Virus record (IMG/VR): IMGVR_UViG_3300045107_000189 | Span: 1-52,491 of that record | Length of the DNA stretch: 52,491 bases | Strand: one strand, 5' to 3' | DNA from: a virus | In this document: positions 33,317 to 39,846 of the stretch, piece after piece | Layout: every line of letters begins with the position of its first letter | Numbering within the stretch: position 1 is the stretch's first letter | Notes under the pieces: model-generated | What the model was told of the DNA's origin: nothing | The model's input: only the letters and a program-made list of their open reading frames with translations | The model's database searches: none | Program-made: the position numbers and the translations under genes

Positions 33317-33717
33317 GGCGCCACCCAGCGCGGCTTGGGCGACAGGTTCGTGCGGCCGACGCCGAAGTCGCGCGTGCCGTCCGCGCGCAGCGCGTGCGCG
33401 AGCCACCCGCGGTTCGCGGCGTAGCGCAGGGCCGCGCCCCATGCGCGCGGCTCCTGCGGCTTCAGCTCGAGCGGCGCGACCGCGACCGCATCCTCGACGA
33501 GGAACGGCGCACCGTTTGCCGTCTCGCGCCCGAAGCGGCGCAGGAACTCGGCCGCCAGGTGCGTCCACTCGCCGAGCGACCGCTCCGCGCGCTCGCCGGC
33601 GCGCAGGATGGCCGCGTCACGACGATCGGCCGCGGCTTCCGAGCGCGGCCGCTTCGGCTTCGTCGGCGCCGACGTGCGGCCGACGCTCAGCCAGTCCACT
33701 TGGCCTTCGCTGCTCAC
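33313..33717 (-). CDS. Replication-operon protein (134 aa)
   Basis: GTG at 33717 overlaps the initiator-like stop (GTGA). The centre has R-D-A-A-I-L-R-A-G-E-R-A-E-R-S-L-G-E-W and P-R-A-W-G-A-A-L-R-Y-A-A-N-R-G-W-L, a small winged-helix-like pattern found in phage hypothetical proteins next to replication genes. It lies where lambda has P, but it is too short and lacks a helicase-loader signature. Function unknown. Confidence 0.55.
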   Translation of the reverse strand: MSSEGQVDWLSVGRTSAPTKPKRPRSEAAADRRDAAILRAGERAERSLGEWTHLAAEFLRRFGRETANGAPFLVEDAVAVAPLELKPQEPRAWGAALRYAANRGWLAHALRADGTRDFGVGRTNLSPKPRWVAP

Positions 33718-34472
33718 GACGCCTCCTTCGCGGCGACGGTCGACGCCGCGCCCTTCACGCGCTGCTCCTCGCGCCACAGCCGGTACGCGGTGCGGTACGA
33801 GGTCGGGGTCTCGATGCGGTTCGGGGCGCGGAATCCGGCCGCGACGTACTCAGCTTCGAGGTCGGCGAGTTCGGCGCGGCGCTGCTCGCGCAGCTTTGCC
33901 TTCGCCTCCGGGTCGTCCGGCCTCTTCCACGCGCTCTCGCGCGCGCTCTCCCGGATTTCTTCTGGATTTCTTAAGAAGGATTGGGGGGCACCATGCCCCC
34001 GGGTCTCTGGACACGATGCCCCCGGGGAGGAGGACTCCGTGCCCCCGGGGTGGGGGCACGATGCCCCCGGTGTGGACGACTCGCGCACAAGGTTGTCCAC
34101 AGCCTGCGCCGGGGGCACGGTGCCCCCACCCGGGGACACCATGCCCCCACCCCCGCGCCCTCCCCGCCTGCCCTTGTGCGGCGCCTCGTATCCGTGCTCC
34201 GACAGCCACCGCGGCGAGATTCGGTACGCGGTGCCGAGGTACGGTGGCGGCGCGATCCCGGTGACCTCGAGGAACCCGAGCTGCTCGAGCGCGCGCACCT
34301 GCCGCCGCGCCGTGCGCTCGTCGCGGCGGATCTTCTGCGCGATGGTCGTCATGGACGCGTAGATGCCCGCGCCGTCGTCGTTCGCGTAGTCGCTCATCGC
34401 GAGCGCCGGCAGCAGCAAGTGGTCCTCGCCGTCGAAGCGGTCCCACACGAACGACATCACGTAGATCGACAC
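33714..34472 (-). CDS. Winged-helix replication initiator-like protein (lambda O role), 252 aa
   Basis: GTG at 34472 gives MSIYVMSFVWDRFDGEDHLL then L-A-L-(A)-M-S-D-Y-A-N-D-D-G-A-G-I-Y-A-S-M-T-T-I-A-Q-K-I-R-R-D-E-R-T-A-R-R-Q-V-R-A-L-E-Q-L-G. This is the helix-turn-helix domain of phage replication proteins with O/DnaD-like roles. The middle is a low-complexity G/P-rich linker (G-R-R-G-G-R-G-G-G-G-M-V-S-P-G-G-G-T-V) whose DNA holds regular iterons. The C-terminal half is basic and helical. GTG at 34580 is a longer, less likely start. It would bind the origin within its own gene. Confidence 0.68.
   Translation of the reverse strand: MSIYVMSFVWDRFDGEDHLLLPALAMSDYANDDGAGIYASMTTIAQKIRRDERTARRQVRALEQLGFLEVTGIAPPPYLGTAYRISPRWLSEHGYEAPHKGRRGGRGGGGMVSPGGGTVPPAQAVDNLVRESSTPGASCPHPGGTESSSPGASCPETRGHGAPQSFLRNPEEIRESARESAWKRPDDPEAKAKLREQRRAELADLEAEYVAAGFRAPNRIETPTSYRTAYRLWREEQRVKGAASTVAAKEAS
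33955..34148. other. Predicted replication origin: iterons, DnaA-like box and AT-rich segment
   Basis: TGCCCCC, usually within CACNATGCCCCCGGGG, begins at 33994, 34017, 34040, 34062, 34121 and 34142: spacings 23, 23, 22, a 59-bp gap, then 21. Three copies are preceded by GGGGGCA three bases away, giving inverted repeats. The gap contains TTGTCCACA (34093-34101), one base from the DnaA box TTATCCACA. Beside the iterons, 33955-33982 is strikingly AT-rich (GGATTTCTTCTGGATTTCTT) in very GC-rich DNA. Lambda places iterons and an AT-rich unwinding segment inside its O gene the same way. Confidence 0.68.
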
Positions 34473-34606
34473 GTCGACTCGTCCTCGAAGGATCGAGACC
34501 GTCCGTGGTGCCTCTGCCCCGCCCCGCATCCATGCAGGGTCGTTATGTGAATCGCGCCGTGTCGGTTGCCCGCCCGTCACGGCACGAGCGGTAGTGCCCA
34601 GCCGTT

Positions 34607-34813: not shown

Positions 34814-35031
34814 CGCGCCGCCTCGTCCACGAGCGACAGCAGCAGTTGCTCACGCAGCTGCGCGAACTCATCGCGCGCGGCGCGGCGCGCCAGCTCATCG
34901 CGCGCGGCGCGGCGCGCCAGCTCTTCGATCGCGTGCACGAGCCGCGGCGCGGCCGCGGGCCCGATCTCCACGCGGAGCGCATCGAGCAGCTTCGAACGCG
35001 CGTAGAAGATCGGCGGCAGGACGTCGCTCAC
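34810..35031 (-). CDS. Small charged helical protein with internal duplication (73 aa)
   Basis: GTG at 35031 overlaps the CII-like stop. The protein is mostly helical and has two exact copies of E-L-A-R-R-A-A-R-D, encoded by an exact 27-bp tandem repeat. Lower-complexity helices of this kind often form coiled coils. It sits between the CII-like gene and the initiator-like gene. No family is recognised. Confidence 0.52.
   Translation of the reverse strand: MSDVLPPIFYARSKLLDALRVEIGPAAAPRLVHAIEELARRAARDELARRAARDEFAQLREQLLLSLVDEAAR
34867..34920 (-). repeat. 27-bp perfect tandem duplication, in frame
   Basis: Units 34867-34893 and 34894-34920 are identical (each starts CTCATCGCGCGCGG on the plus strand). 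The unit length is a multiple of three and adds nine residues. It may be a recent slippage event and a site of length variation. Confidence 0.9.
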
Positions 35032-35486
35032 CGGTGCGTCTCCTGCACGAAGCGCTTGATGATCTCGTTCTCACGACGAGACTCCGCCAGCTCGGCGCGC
35101 AACGCCGCGACCTGCCGCTCGAGCGTCGAAAGCTTCGGGGTGAGTTCGAAACCTGCGCGGTCCGCGAGCCACATCAGCGGAACGTGGTTGCCGCACAGCT
35201 GCATCAGCGGCTCAAGCTTCTCGGGCGGGAACGATGCCTGCCCATTGCGCATCCGCGACCAGTTGCCCTTGTCGATCCCCAGCGGGCCGTAGATCTCGCT
35301 GTCGACGAGCCCCGAAAGGTTCGCGCAGAGATTGATCGCCGCGACCATGGACGGCTGCAGCCGTACCGAGTTCTCGTCGACGACGCCGGGCGCGGCGCGC
35401 CGTGCGATTCGCAACTCCAGCTGCTCAACGCCCGACAACGAAGTTGTCTCGTGTTGTAGGCCCGATTTCGCACCTGATGCGGCCAT
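35028..35486 (-). CDS. CII-like phage regulator (152 aa)
   Basis: ATG at 35486. The core (A-I-N-L-C-A-N-L-S-G-L-V-D-S-E-I-Y-G-P-L-G-I-D-K-G-N-W-S-R-M-R-N-G-Q-A-S-F-P-P-E-K-L) is a helix-turn-helix typical of CII/Cro-like proteins in proteobacterial prophages that read W-S-R-I-x-x-G-x-A-x-F-P. The C-terminus is a coiled coil (L-S-T-L-E-R-Q-V-A-A-L-R-A-E-L-A), as expected for a tetramer. It follows cro by 22 bp, the lambda order. It would be a transcription activator or second regulator; target not identified. Confidence 0.72.
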   Translation of the reverse strand: MAASGAKSGLQHETTSLSGVEQLELRIARRAAPGVVDENSVRLQPSMVAAINLCANLSGLVDSEIYGPLGIDKGNWSRMRNGQASFPPEKLEPLMQLCGNHVPLMWLADRAGFELTPKLSTLERQVAALRAELAESRRENEIIKRFVQETHR

Positions 35487-35508: not shown

Positions 35509-35694
35509 TCAGGCGATGGCTTGGTCGCGGAAGTACCGCGCAAGCTTCTCGACCGTGTCGACGCGCGGCGCGGGCGTCTGCCCACTCGCTATGCGCTGCA
35601 CGGTGCTGAAGGGCACGCCAGATCCGCGGGCGACGGCGTACAGGCTCTGCGCCTTGGACTGCAGTTGCGCGCGGACAAACTCGAAGTCGCTCAT
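35509..35694 (-). CDS. Cro-like helix-turn-helix regulator (61 aa)
   Basis: The product MSDFEFVRAQLQSKAQSLYA continues with V-A-R-G-S-G-V-P-F-S-T-V-Q-R-I-A-S-G-Q-T-P-A-P, an HTH_3 fold in which S-T-V-Q-R-I is the recognition helix. ATG at 35694 is only about 7 nt after the predicted PR -10 hexamer, so the mRNA may be leaderless even though GGGGG sits upstream. It faces the repressor gene across shared operators and is the first gene of the leftward early operon. The repressor's helix (S-T-V-Q-R-I-L-A-G) matches closely, so both should bind the same operators. Confidence 0.8.
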   Translation of the reverse strand: MSDFEFVRAQLQSKAQSLYAVARGSGVPFSTVQRIASGQTPAPRVDTVEKLARYFRDQAIA

Positions 35695-35701
35695 GCCCCC
35701 A

Positions 35702-35743
35702 ATATTGCACCCATGTATGGGTACACGCAACCCACCTTTGGTG
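35702..35743 (-). promoter_or_regulatory. PR-type early promoter with two operators
   Basis: On the minus strand, -35 TTGCGT (35730-35725), a 17-bp spacer and -10 CAATAT (35707-35702) drive cro. Operator ACCCATACATGGGT (35722-35709) sits in the spacer, 2 bp after the -35. A second, imperfect operator CACCAAAGGTGGGT (35743-35730) ends on the first base of the -35. Start-to-start distance is 21 bp. The PL-type promoter at 36811 has the same geometry. Confidence 0.75.
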
Positions 35744-35769
35744 ACAGCGGCGCCCTACGCTCTTCAGCC

Positions 35770-36156
35770 ATGGGGCGAGGCAAAGGCACGGGCAAGGGCG
35801 GCAACAAGCCCAAGGGCACGACGAAGCTCGTCCAGCCCCACGCTCGCGAGCTGCGTATGACGCTCGCGCAGAACCTGCGGGCCGCGATCGACGCGGAATG
35901 GCCGCCCAAGCCCAGCCAGCCCGAGAACTCGGACGGTATCGCCCGCCTTGCGGCCGGCGCCGGGTGCTCCGTGTCGACCGTCCAACGCATACTCGCGGGC
36001 GAGGTATCGCCGCGGGTCGACCAGATTGCAGATTTTGCGGCTGCCTTGGGTGTGCGCCCGATGCAGCTGCTGGACCGTCGATTCAACGCACAGGGTCGTG
36101 AGAGCCGAGATTCGGAAGTCGACCCGGGGAGAATGCTTCAGCGACCGCGAGGTTGA
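35770..36156 (+). CDS. Prophage repressor, short CI-like HTH protein (128 aa)
   Basis: ATG at 35770. A basic glycine-rich N-terminus (G-R-G-K-G-T-G-K-G-G-N-K-P-K-G) is followed by A-R-L-A-A-G-A-G-C-S-V-S-T-V-Q-R-I-L-A-G-E-V-S-P-R-V-D-Q-I-A-D-F (about 60-95), an HTH_3 domain nearly matching cro in the recognition helix. It lacks the S24 (LexA-like) self-cleavage domain of classic CI. Induction must therefore work by another route. It is divergent from cro and shares its operators, the expected lysogeny repressor position. Only weak -10/-35 elements precede it. Confidence 0.75.
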   Translation: MGRGKGTGKGGNKPKGTTKLVQPHARELRMTLAQNLRAAIDAEWPPKPSQPENSDGIARLAAGAGCSVSTVQRILAGEVSPRVDQIADFAAALGVRPMQLLDRRFNAQGRESRDSEVDPGRMLQRPRG

Positions 36157-36160
36157 TCGG

Positions 36161-36190
36161 TTGCTCTCCCGGTCCACACGCGGGCATAAG
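36161..36190 (+). promoter_or_regulatory. Candidate promoter for the secreted moron
   Basis: TTGCTC (36161-36166) and CATAAG (36185-36190) are spaced 18 bp in the 72-bp gap between repressor stop and the next start. The match is modest. If real, the secreted protein would be made from the lysogen independent of repressor read-through. Confidence 0.3.
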
Positions 36191-36228
36191 TACTCAGGTT
36201 CGCCCCTAACGAACGAGAGGCCGATCGC

Positions 36229-36798
36229 ATGAGACCTGCCGTGCTGACATGCGTAGCGCTCGCCATAGCGCCGGTGTCCCCCGCGCGTGCGGCAGAAGAA
36301 CTCGGGCCGCTGCAAAGCGCGGTGTTCGAGCGTCCTGGCACGCCCCGCGAGATCGCCACCGCAGCGCGCGCGTGCGCCATCAAGCACCTGCGGAATGACG
36401 CTTTCCAGATTCGCGACTCGTCGCGCGTTGGGTTCATGAGCCCGCCAGGCTCGACCGCGGGCGACGCAAACACGATCCCAGGCGGAGAAGTCGTGACAAC
36501 GTTCGACCCTGACGCCGGGCTGGTCGTCGCGCAGAGCCGCATCACTCGCTCCGCGCTCTTCGGCAAGGAGAGCGTGCAAAGCACGGTGACGATCGAGGCT
36601 AAGGACGGGCGCTTCCGCATCACGCACTCGAGCATCGGCAGCGCGGCAGCGGACACGGGCTACGCAGCGAACAGCGGATACCACCCGGTGTACATCCAGG
36701 CCATGAGCGGGCACGCGAAGATCCGCGCGGCGCTCGAAGCGCTGACCGAGAAAATCGCGGCGTGCGTGCGGGACGCGCCGGCCTCGGACGACTGGTGA
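36229..36798 (+). CDS. Secreted protein of unknown function (189 aa), moron
   Basis: ATG at 36229 after GAGAGG. A Sec signal (V-L-T-C-V-A-L-A-I-A-P-V-S-P-A-R-A then A-E-E) is followed by a compact domain: A-A-R-A-C-A-I-K-H-L-R-N-D-A-F-Q-I-R-D-S-S-R, I-T-R-S-A-L-F-G-K-E-S-V-Q-S-T-V-T-I-E-A-K-D-G-R-F-R-I-T. The C-terminal L-T-E-K-I-A-A-C-V pairs with the earlier cysteine. This layout resembles DUF4468-type periplasmic domains. It is placed just downstream of the repressor, where lysogenic-conversion genes are common. Probable periplasmic protein. Confidence 0.72.
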   Translation: MRPAVLTCVALAIAPVSPARAAEELGPLQSAVFERPGTPREIATAARACAIKHLRNDAFQIRDSSRVGFMSPPGSTAGDANTIPGGEVVTTFDPDAGLVVAQSRITRSALFGKESVQSTVTIEAKDGRFRITHSSIGSAAADTGYAANSGYHPVYIQAMSGHAKIRAALEALTEKIAACVRDAPASDDW

Positions 36799-36810
36799 TA
36801 CCGAGCTGAT

Positions 36811-36852
36811 ACCCAATGATGGGTTGACCTGACCCAAACGTGGGTATAGGCT
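36811..36852 (+). promoter_or_regulatory. PL-type early promoter with two operators
   Basis: -35 TTGACC (36824-36829), 17-bp spacer, -10 TAGGCT (36847-36852). Operator ACCCAATGATGGGT (36811-36824) ends on the first base of the -35; operator ACCCAAACGTGGGT (36832-36845) lies 2 bp after it. The 21-bp step and the 2-bp and 1-bp offsets equal those at PR. It drives the long rightward operon beginning at 36880. Confidence 0.78.
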
Positions 36853-36879: not shown

Positions 36880-37128
36880 ATGTCCCGCACGTCGAATGCC
36901 GCAACCGCGCACGCCGTTCCGGCGCCGGTTCCTCCGCACCTGCGACGCCCGGCCGCACGCGACGCGCAGCACGCCGTCGAGCTTGCGGCCTGGTCCCGCC
37001 TCGAAGGTCTCGTCCGCCAGGGGCGCGAGGCCTGCGAGCGCGGCGAGCGCGGCGATCGCATCCGCGAACTGCGCCTGATCCGGTCCATCCGCGACGAGGC
37101 CCTGGCGCTGGCCGGGTATCCGCTGTGA
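36880..37128 (+). CDS. First gene of rightward early operon, unknown (82 aa)
   Basis: ATG at 36880 follows GGAGG. A disordered, alanine/proline start (S-R-T-S-N-A-A-T-A-H-A-V-P-A-P-V-P) precedes a helical part (A-V-E-L-A-A-W-S-R-L-E-G-L-V-R-Q-G-R-E-A-C-E-R-G-E-R-G-D-R-I). No family is recognised. In lambda this position holds N, so an antitermination or other immediate-early role is worth testing, but there is no arginine-rich N-like motif at its N-terminus. Confidence 0.6.
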   Translation: MSRTSNAATAHAVPAPVPPHLRRPAARDAQHAVELAAWSRLEGLVRQGREACERGERGDRIRELRLIRSIRDEALALAGYPL

Positions 37129-38229: not shown

Positions 38230-38814
38230 ATGTCCGCAGCTCCCGAAGTACTCGCCGGCGTGCAGAGCATCCCGCTCGCGTCGCTGCGTGTGTCCGACAC
38301 CGGCGCCCAGGCCGAGCGCCGCAAGCGCTTCGACAAGGCCGCGATCGCCGAGCTCGCCGAGAGCATCCGAACCGTCGGCCTGCTGCAGCCGCTCGTCGTG
38401 CGCCCCCGCGACGACGGGTTCCAGATCATCGCGGGTGAGCGGCGCTTCCTTGCCGCGCAGGCCGCCGGTCTGGACACGGTGCTGGCCGCCGTGCGCGAGC
38501 TCACCGACGACCAGGTGCTCGAGGTGCAGCTGATCGAGAACCTGCAGCGCGAAGGCCTGCACGAGCTCGTCGAGGCCGAAGGGTACGAGGCGCTGATGAA
38601 GCGCCACGGCTACACGGTCGACGACCTGGTCGCGAAGGTCGGGAAGTCGCGTGCGTACGTCTACGCGCGGCTGAAGCTGCTCGCGCTCTGCAAGGAGGGC
38701 CGGAAGGCGTTCTACGACGGGAAGATCTCCGCGTCGATCGCGCTGCTCGTCGCGCGCATCCCGGGCGACTCGCTGCAGCAGGAGGCGCTGAAGGAGATCA
38801 CGCAGGGCCGCTAG
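38230..38814 (+). CDS. ParB/RepB-like protein, N-terminal part (194 aa), ends at in-frame TAG
   Basis: The ParB nuclease/CTPase-type domain is clear: G-A-Q-A-E-R-R-K-R-F, L-L-Q-P-L-V-V-R-P, I-I-A-G-E-R-R-F-L-A-A (box), and Q-L-I-E-N-L-Q-R-E. A helix-turn-helix follows (Y-T-V-D-D-L-V-A-K-V-G-K-S-R-A-Y-V-Y-A-R). It stops at TAG 38812-38814. The next 9 nt and the following gene continue in the same frame with what looks like the C-terminal half of the usual ~540-residue protein. No ParA is present, so plasmid-style partition is unlikely; similar prophage proteins are common in early operons. Confidence 0.82.
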   Translation: MSAAPEVLAGVQSIPLASLRVSDTGAQAERRKRFDKAAIAELAESIRTVGLLQPLVVRPRDDGFQIIAGERRFLAAQAAGLDTVLAAVRELTDDQVLEVQLIENLQREGLHELVEAEGYEALMKRHGYTVDDLVAKVGKSRAYVYARLKLLALCKEGRKAFYDGKISASIALLVARIPGDSLQQEALKEITQGR

Positions 38815-38823
38815 GACGGCCCG

Positions 38824-39846
38824 ATGTCGTATCGCGAAGCGAACGAGTACGTGCACAGCCACTTCATGCTGCGCCTCGGCGAGGCGGGCTTCCCGACCAG
38901 CGACGAGACGCTGCTGCCCGCCGCCGGCGCCTGCGGCACCTGCCCGAAGCGGACGGGAAACCAGCCCGAGCTGTTCTCCGACGTGAAGGGTGCAGACGTC
39001 TGCACGGACCCGGCGTGCTTCCGCGCGAAGCGCGAGGCCTGGGCCACGCGCCGCATCGAGCAGGCGCGCGCAGCGGGCCAGCCAGTGATCGAAGGCGCGG
39101 CCGCCAAGCGCATCGCGCCCTACGGTGGCCGCTCGACGCTGCAGGGATACTCGAAGCTCGACGACCGCGTCTACGACGATCCGAAGCGCCGCACCGTGCG
39201 GCAGATCCTCGGCAACAGCGCGGAGACCGTGCTCGTGAAGGTCGACGGCGGGAAGCACGATGCGACCGAGGTGGTCGAGGTCGTGCCCGAGCAGGCGATC
39301 CGCGCTGCGCTGAAGGAGAGCGGCGTCAAGCTGGATCGCTCCTCCTCCAACCCGGAGCAGGCAGCGCGCGAGAAGAAGGCGAAGCGTGAGCGCGCGGCGC
39401 GGGAGGCGATCGCGAACGCCGTGCTCGCGAAGGCGCAGGCGTCACTCGGACAGCACCTCGGTCCGCAGGAGCTCCGCGACGTCGCGCGCGGCTACTGGTC
39501 CGAGATGCAGGCGGATACGAAGAAGGCGCTCTGCAAGTTCCTGGGCTGGGAGCTCGTCGTGGTGAAGGACCGGTACCGGGGCGCGCACGGCGACCTCGAG
39601 GCGACGGCCGAGGCGCAGCTGCCGAAGATGGACGTTCCCGCGCTCAATCGCTTGCTGCTGGCCTGCGTGATCGCCGGCGAGCTGCAGGTCTCGACCTGGT
39701 CGGACGCGAAGCCCGAGGGCCTGCTGCGGATGGCAGCGCGCTACCGCGTCGACGCCGCGAAGATCCGGCGCGACCTTGCCGCCGCGGACAAGGCTGCAGC
39801 GAAGAAGCCCGCCGCGAAGAAGGCGGCGAAGGCGAAGCGGCGCTGA
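38824..39846 (+). CDS. ParB/RepB-like protein, C-terminal part (340 aa)
   Basis: This starts MSYREANEYVHSHFMLRLGE, followed by a Cys cluster (C-G-T-C-P-K-R-T-G-N...D-V-C-T-D-P-A-C-F) that occurs in the second half of prophage ParB-like proteins. The middle and C-terminus are basic and helical (A-K-K-P-A-A-K-K-A-A-K-A-K-R-R). It is in the same frame as the N-terminal part, separated only by TAG and three codons. AGGA at 38813-38816, 7 nt before ATG, could allow reinitiation. A nonsense mutation, suppression or a two-chain protein are all possible. Confidence 0.8.
   Translation: MSYREANEYVHSHFMLRLGEAGFPTSDETLLPAAGACGTCPKRTGNQPELFSDVKGADVCTDPACFRAKREAWATRRIEQARAAGQPVIEGAAAKRIAPYGGRSTLQGYSKLDDRVYDDPKRRTVRQILGNSAETVLVKVDGGKHDATEVVEVVPEQAIRAALKESGVKLDRSSSNPEQAAREKKAKRERAAREAIANAVLAKAQASLGQHLGPQELRDVARGYWSEMQADTKKALCKFLGWELVVVKDRYRGAHGDLEATAEAQLPKMDVPALNRLLLACVIAGELQVSTWSDAKPEGLLRMAARYRVDAAKIRRDLAAADKAAAKKPAAKKAAKAKRR

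Follow-up and report, generated by a model that had tools for sequence, protein, structure and literature searches.

We regard it as highly probable (roughly 85%) that the DNA analyzed here carries the immunity region of a temperate lambda-like phage, in which a repressor and Cro would operate a genetic switch through operators embedded in the early promoters. The window, that is the whole IMG/VR virus record IMGVR_UViG_3300045107_000189 (positions 1-52,491; 52,491 bp), has a GC content of 69% and encodes a tyrosine integrase, and its genes follow the lambda order on both sides of the repressor when read outward. The repressor itself is a 128-aa protein with an HTH of the Cro/C1 type and a basic N-terminal arm (35770..36156, plus strand). 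Leftward from it lie the genes of a 61-aa Cro-like HTH protein (cro; 35509..35694, minus strand), a 152-aa HTH protein that corresponds in position to CII within the putative PR operon (35028..35486, minus strand) and, in the same operon, an O-like replication-initiation protein (33714..34580, minus strand; phrog_678/391, E 2e-7). Rightward come a 189-aa protein whose start resembles a signal peptide (36229..36798, plus strand), which takes the rex position between the repressor and OL, then the putative PL promoter, and then an early operon that begins with an 82-aa gene (36880..37128, plus strand) and includes a ParB-like protein. The repressor and cro genes are divergent with shared operators (OR) between them, and a second operator region (OL) is found at the other early promoter, past the repressor operon; both features are those of a lambda-type switch.

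The operators are 14-bp sites of the form ACCCA-N4-TGGGT. OR1 (ACCCATGTATGGGT, 35709..35722), OL1 (ACCCAATGATGGGT, 36811..36824) and OL2 (ACCCAAACGTGGGT, 36832..36845) are perfect, and OR2 (ACCCACCTTTGGTG, 35730..35743) is degenerate, matching 8 of the 10 arm bases. The start-to-start distance is 21 bp in both pairs. A preliminary description of this stretch had reported these four sites, their spacing and the perfect arms of three of them, all of which were re-found at the same coordinates. It had further drawn PR and PL on a single plan, in which the outer operator overlaps the −35 by one base, its own last and the hexamer's initial T, and the −35 is followed by 2 bp, the second operator, 1 bp and the −10; this plan holds for both promoters. 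In the 52.5-kb record the perfect motif occurs three times, compared with a mean of 0.01 in shuffled sequences (none of 100 shuffles reached three), and all three occurrences fall inside the two predicted early promoters. The window contains 151 perfect 5-4-5 inverted repeats, among which those at 36811 and 36832 are the only two sharing the same arms within 60 bp. With an operator matrix built from the relatives alone, the window sites being excluded, the perfect sites score 18–22 bits, against a maximum of 14.9 across 40 random windows that served as background. The search for more ACCCA-N4-TGGGT sites that the preliminary description had proposed was carried out with both the pattern and the matrix, and yielded no other perfect site and nothing else convincing in the record.

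OR1 lies within the 17-bp spacer of PR, between a −35 hexamer TTGCGT (35725..35730, minus strand) and a −10 hexamer CAATAT (35702..35707, minus strand); the first base of OR2 coincides with the first T of this −35 on the minus strand. Correspondingly, OL2 occupies the 17-bp spacer of PL, between TTGACC (36824..36829, plus strand), which shares the last base of OL1, and TAGGCT (36847..36852, plus strand). A strict sigma-70 scan of the window called neither PR nor PL. In the window alone the palindromes are thus secure and the promoters only plausible, and it is conservation among relatives that argues for PR and PL as promoters and for the embedded sites as their operators. The earlier proposal that the early promoters point outward and carry operators within them, to be read by the repressor and Cro, gains strong support from 15 relatives sharing the same layout.

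Since protein searches of viral contigs and of named phages gave no close relatives of the 128-aa repressor, the DNA design itself was used as a query. We scanned 2.9 million viral contigs for two ACCCA-N4-TGGGT sites separated by a gap of 3–12 bp, with no protein in the query, and obtained 17 stretches, 13 of which had a gap of 7, the one of the ten allowed that corresponds to the 21-bp spacing of the window. When AGGGA-N4-TCCCT, a pattern of equal base composition, was scanned as a control, four stretches emerged, and a gap of 7 occurred in none of them. Leaving aside L018, which lies at a contig end, the gap-7 loci encode homologues of the 61-aa Cro and the 128-aa repressor flanking the sites. 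Stretches with other gaps (L006, L010, L014 and L020) were not counted as members. A looser scan, together with the named Achromobacter phage CF418P1, brought the total to 15 resolved related immunity regions; the near-duplicates L011/L016, L040/L046 and L009/L028 were each counted once, L012 and L022 are pieces of one contig, and L018, L039, L041, L043-L045 and L048 were left out. A scan of a genome collection matched Bordetella trematum only, which agrees with L009 in its operator and in the tail of its repressor. The prophage CF418-P1 of Achromobacter, which shares the promoter-operator plan, has been reported as induced upon infection with lytic phages (PMC10457797). In the public annotation of CF418P1 (L025 3423-5416) the repressor is a hypothetical protein, and cro was missed under a large ORF on the opposite strand.

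All 15 related regions have Cro and repressor homologues around the sites, an operator inside a 17-bp spacer and a −10 of the form NANNNT. The A at the second and the T at the sixth position are invariant in the PR −10 of all 16 phages and in the PL −10 of the 10 phages tallied. OR1 is found at the same place in the 15 relatives, and the recurrence of this site, with its spacing and the arrangement of genes around it, in at least 15 other phages leads us to take the sites to be real. The start codons obey equally narrow distances. Over the 12 first-pass records, which represent 11 distinct phages including the window, the repressor ATG is located 59–61 bp away from where OR1 starts, and the cro start, 6–8 nt downstream of the PR −10 (7 nt in the window), is the first ATG encountered past that hexamer. 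The distance between the cro and repressor ATGs is 73–76 bp in the first pass and 73–79 bp in the second, with the qualification that ATG distances formed part of the search criterion for 5 of the 16 phages (the second pass) and that for several others the repressor start was picked among in-frame codons. Upstream of the repressor gene, TACGCT (35756..35761, plus strand), which ends 8 nt before the ATG, is the predicted −10 of the repressor promoter, PRM; comparable hexamers, read by eye, end 6–8 nt before the repressor ATG in the relatives, L047 excepted. There is no recognizable PRM −35, and OR2 covers the region where it would be expected. Given that the cro and repressor ATGs stand at fixed distances from OR1, close after the −10s, both mRNAs are most likely leaderless, with predicted starts at or beside the AUG. 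The PL transcript, unlike these two, has a predicted leader of about 20 nt with a Shine-Dalgarno sequence (taggagg) ahead of the 82-aa gene.

The operator code is strict at its center and lax at its edges: among 64 sites whose arms deviate at no more than one base, the central CCC/GGG is invariant, and the arms vary solely at the outermost position and at the fifth, which is A or G. The form of OR2 differs between the three clades of the repressor tree, in which the branch joining the clade of the window is moderately supported (82/86). In that clade (clade C) the left arm of OR2, ACCC[AG], is kept in all seven members and the right arm is decayed; in clade B, OR2 shows little or no decay; and clade A has a third OR site about 31 bp beyond, which spans the repressor ATG. 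This third site, TCCCA-N4-TGGGT, contains the repressor's own ATG in the clade-A phages L007, L009, L017 and L042, and a counterpart at OL is present in L007, L009 and L017, and also in CF418P1. Across the phages, each side carries one strong and one weak operator, two operators, or three. The OR2 of the window scores 5.4 bits, compared with random maxima averaging 8.8, which by itself is not significant; position and relatives are what point to it as an operator. As this weak site covers the expected PRM −35 region, negative autoregulation of the repressor is suggested.

The repressor is recognizable mainly by its DNA-binding domain. It contains neither an S24 domain nor any other recognized C-terminal domain, and no S24 family is found anywhere in the record. 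A structure model shows a five-helix HTH domain (residues 23–100) between disordered ends, the C-terminal 25 residues among them. The profile of the repressor family matches the DNA-binding domain of the SPC32H Rep protein (5d4z) at E 2.4e-10; the window repressor alone does so only at E 0.35, with no sequence match past the HTH, and a fold search with its model retrieved generic HTH proteins, SPC32H Rep included, none of them below E 0.001. With identities of 24–35% it is diverged from the relatives, and its operator specificity is shared with theirs only putatively. A segment aligning with the SPC32H tetramerization region is seen in clade-A relatives only; this tetramer-like tail appears in a weak sequence alignment alone, the clade-A model (mean pLDDT 48) being too poor for use. 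Clade-C repressors start with a basic, probably flexible N-terminal arm (35770-35830 in the window; e.g. MGRGKGTGKGGNKPKG and MTKKEGKRG), reminiscent of the arm with which lambda repressor grips DNA. In family databases the switch proteins are either missing or filed under generic HTH families, and Pfam ANT (PF03374) has no match in the record, although the Ant of SPC32H may belong to another family.

From the sites and their statistics, and from the conservation of sites, promoters, genes and distances, we infer how the proteins would bind, in what order, and with what effect on transcription. PR would drive cro, the gene in the cII position and the O-like replication gene leftward, and PL the other early operon rightward, leaving between them the repressor and one accessory gene for a secreted protein. 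ACCCA-N4-TGGGT would be the binding site of the repressor, and probably also of Cro. Bound to OR1 or OL2, a dimer would lie within the 17-bp spacer of the promoter, and one on OL1 would abut the PL −35, so that in a lysogen RNA polymerase would be kept off both early promoters. OR2, weakened in the clade of the window, would most likely be filled last and would then turn the repressor gene down; it may also be the site preferred by Cro. Transcripts of cro and of the repressor most likely begin at the AUG. Looping between OR and OL would not be needed in such a switch.

That last point departs from the preliminary description, which had proposed that repressor bound at both regions could loop the DNA over the repressor and secreted-protein genes. 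Contact between repressor dimers on OR and OL, closing a 1.1-kb loop that strengthens repression as for lambda CI, would fit with the sites and spacing that the two regions share, with the third site at 31–32 bp in both OR and OL of L007, L009 and L017, which indicates that the regions change together, and with the tetrameric state of the related SPC32H Rep (PMC9986798, PMC9638917). The window repressor, however, has no S24 domain or other recognizable oligomerization domain and its C-terminal tail is modeled as disordered, while alignment reveals a segment corresponding to the SPC32H tetramer region in the clade-A relatives only. Moreover, OR1 and OL1 lie between 373 and 1,959 bp apart, and a test of low power for helical repeats of 10.4–11.0 bp revealed no significant phasing of these distances. 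For the 21-bp spacing, promoter architecture is as good an explanation as dimer-dimer contact, since it already results when one 14-bp operator is fitted into the 17-bp spacer and its neighbor abuts the −35. Beyond the shared sites, the window offers nothing in favor of looping, which we consider unlikely.

It could also be that the sites are chiefly operators of Cro or of another regulator, and that the 128-aa protein is an accessory factor rather than the lysogenic repressor. Both it and Cro are HTH proteins flanking the sites, and an S24-type CI is absent across the whole record. Yet the 128-aa gene stands in the cI position, at a fixed distance to OR1, in every relative, its three clades track three operator layouts, and the DNA-binding domain of the family matches that of a known phage repressor, SPC32H Rep, all of which speaks against this alternative, which we consider improbable. 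As for a chance or composition effect that would have produced palindromes and promoter-like hexamers, the hexamers of the window are indeed weak, but the shuffles, the matched control pattern and the 15 relatives leave it a negligible probability, conservation having already refuted it. We therefore retain a repressor-Cro switch with promoter-embedded operators as the preferred reading.

Several neighboring genes deserve mention. The similarity of the 152-aa protein to CII-like proteins is weak (phrog_101, E 3e-4); Pfam Phage_CII does not match it, the CII family is absent from the record, and no site of the CII type, TTGC-N6-TTGC, occurs in the record. The slot between the repressor and OL is occupied in seven phages (the window, L007, L011, L017, L019, L025 and L038) by a gene whose start is of the signal-peptide or lipoprotein type, and measures just 6–45 bp in L013, L040, L015 and L021. 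A secreted-type gene in this rex slot is possibly cargo for lysogenic conversion or superinfection exclusion. At 38230-39846, a protein with a ParB N-terminal and HTH region precedes one of 340 aa; the latter faintly matches the PHROG of the former (phrog_18726), and the two may be one ParB-like gene that has been split.

We found no published description of an ACCCA-N4-TGGGT phage operator in a literature mostly outside subscription journals, and an older one is possible; the region is apparently a lambda-type switch with an operator undescribed so far. Tentatively, and with more doubt than confidence, one may go further and propose an undescribed switch family, in which a single ACCC[AG]-N4-[TC]GGGT code and a rigid promoter-operator-start geometry, with twin leaderless mRNAs, have persisted while the repressor split into three clades that differ in tail and in number of operators, and in which OR and OL are coupled without a CI-type oligomerization domain. 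In any case, a pattern seen in one genome becomes a comparative system of at least 16 phages with common operator sequence and geometry, varying in repressor tail, number of operators per side and OR-OL distance. With such a set one can ask directly which elements of the lambda switch are essential, be it cooperativity, looping, weak-site autoregulation or leaderless mRNAs, and the operator motif can be used to find and name repressors missed by annotation, as in CF418P1.

Among known systems, the lambda immunity region resembles that of the window in the order and directions of its genes, in operators overlapping PR and PL, in the accessory gene between repressor and PL and in the accompanying integrase. 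It differs in operator sequence, the 14-bp sites of the window sitting inside the promoter spacer; in having three operators per side rather than two at 21 bp; and in an OR-OL separation of about 2.3 kb (PMC5880393) as opposed to 1.1 kb. In addition, the cro mRNA of the window is predicted to be leaderless, and its 128-aa repressor, lacking the S24 domain, has no known route to RecA-driven self-cleavage or to CI-type octamers. The Pseudomonas phages D3 and PAJU2 also share the lambda-like order, and the Cro of PAJU2 matches that of the window (2e-6); their cI-cro regions contain no ACCCA-N4-TGGGT, even with one mismatch allowed, and they were not taken as members. The same applies to Mica, which has no such site in the stretch scanned, and to BPP-1, which has a UmuD-like cI and no such site in the cI-cro intergenic sequence. 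The operators of phage 434 and of Rhizobium phage 16-3 are likewise 14 bp long, with conserved outer arms and a variable center, but their arms are ACAA/TTGT instead of ACCCA/TGGGT. Salmonella phage SPC32H and Enterobacter phage BUCT554 (Uetakevirus) come near in other respects: the DNA-binding domain of Rep is related by family profile, the replication gene is followed by a small gene, a divergent rep and then recombination genes, and in SPC32H palindromes flank rep on both sides. Rep of SPC32H tetramerizes through a C-terminal p53-like domain (PMC9986798, PMC9638917), which the window protein lacks, and its palindromes read TTACC-N5-GGTAA, compared with ACCCA-N4-TGGGT in the window. TTACC-N5-GGTAA occurs on both sides of rep in SPC32H and BUCT554 alike (L029 2081-3022, L031 2154-2889), and these sites may be their OR and OL. 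Finally, in the switch of Yersinia phage PY54 and N15, cI and cro are also divergent, and the PY54 transcripts of both genes were demonstrated by RACE to be leaderless, as we predict for those of the window, although PY54 Cro, in a further difference, binds a single 16-bp site (PMC4488713).
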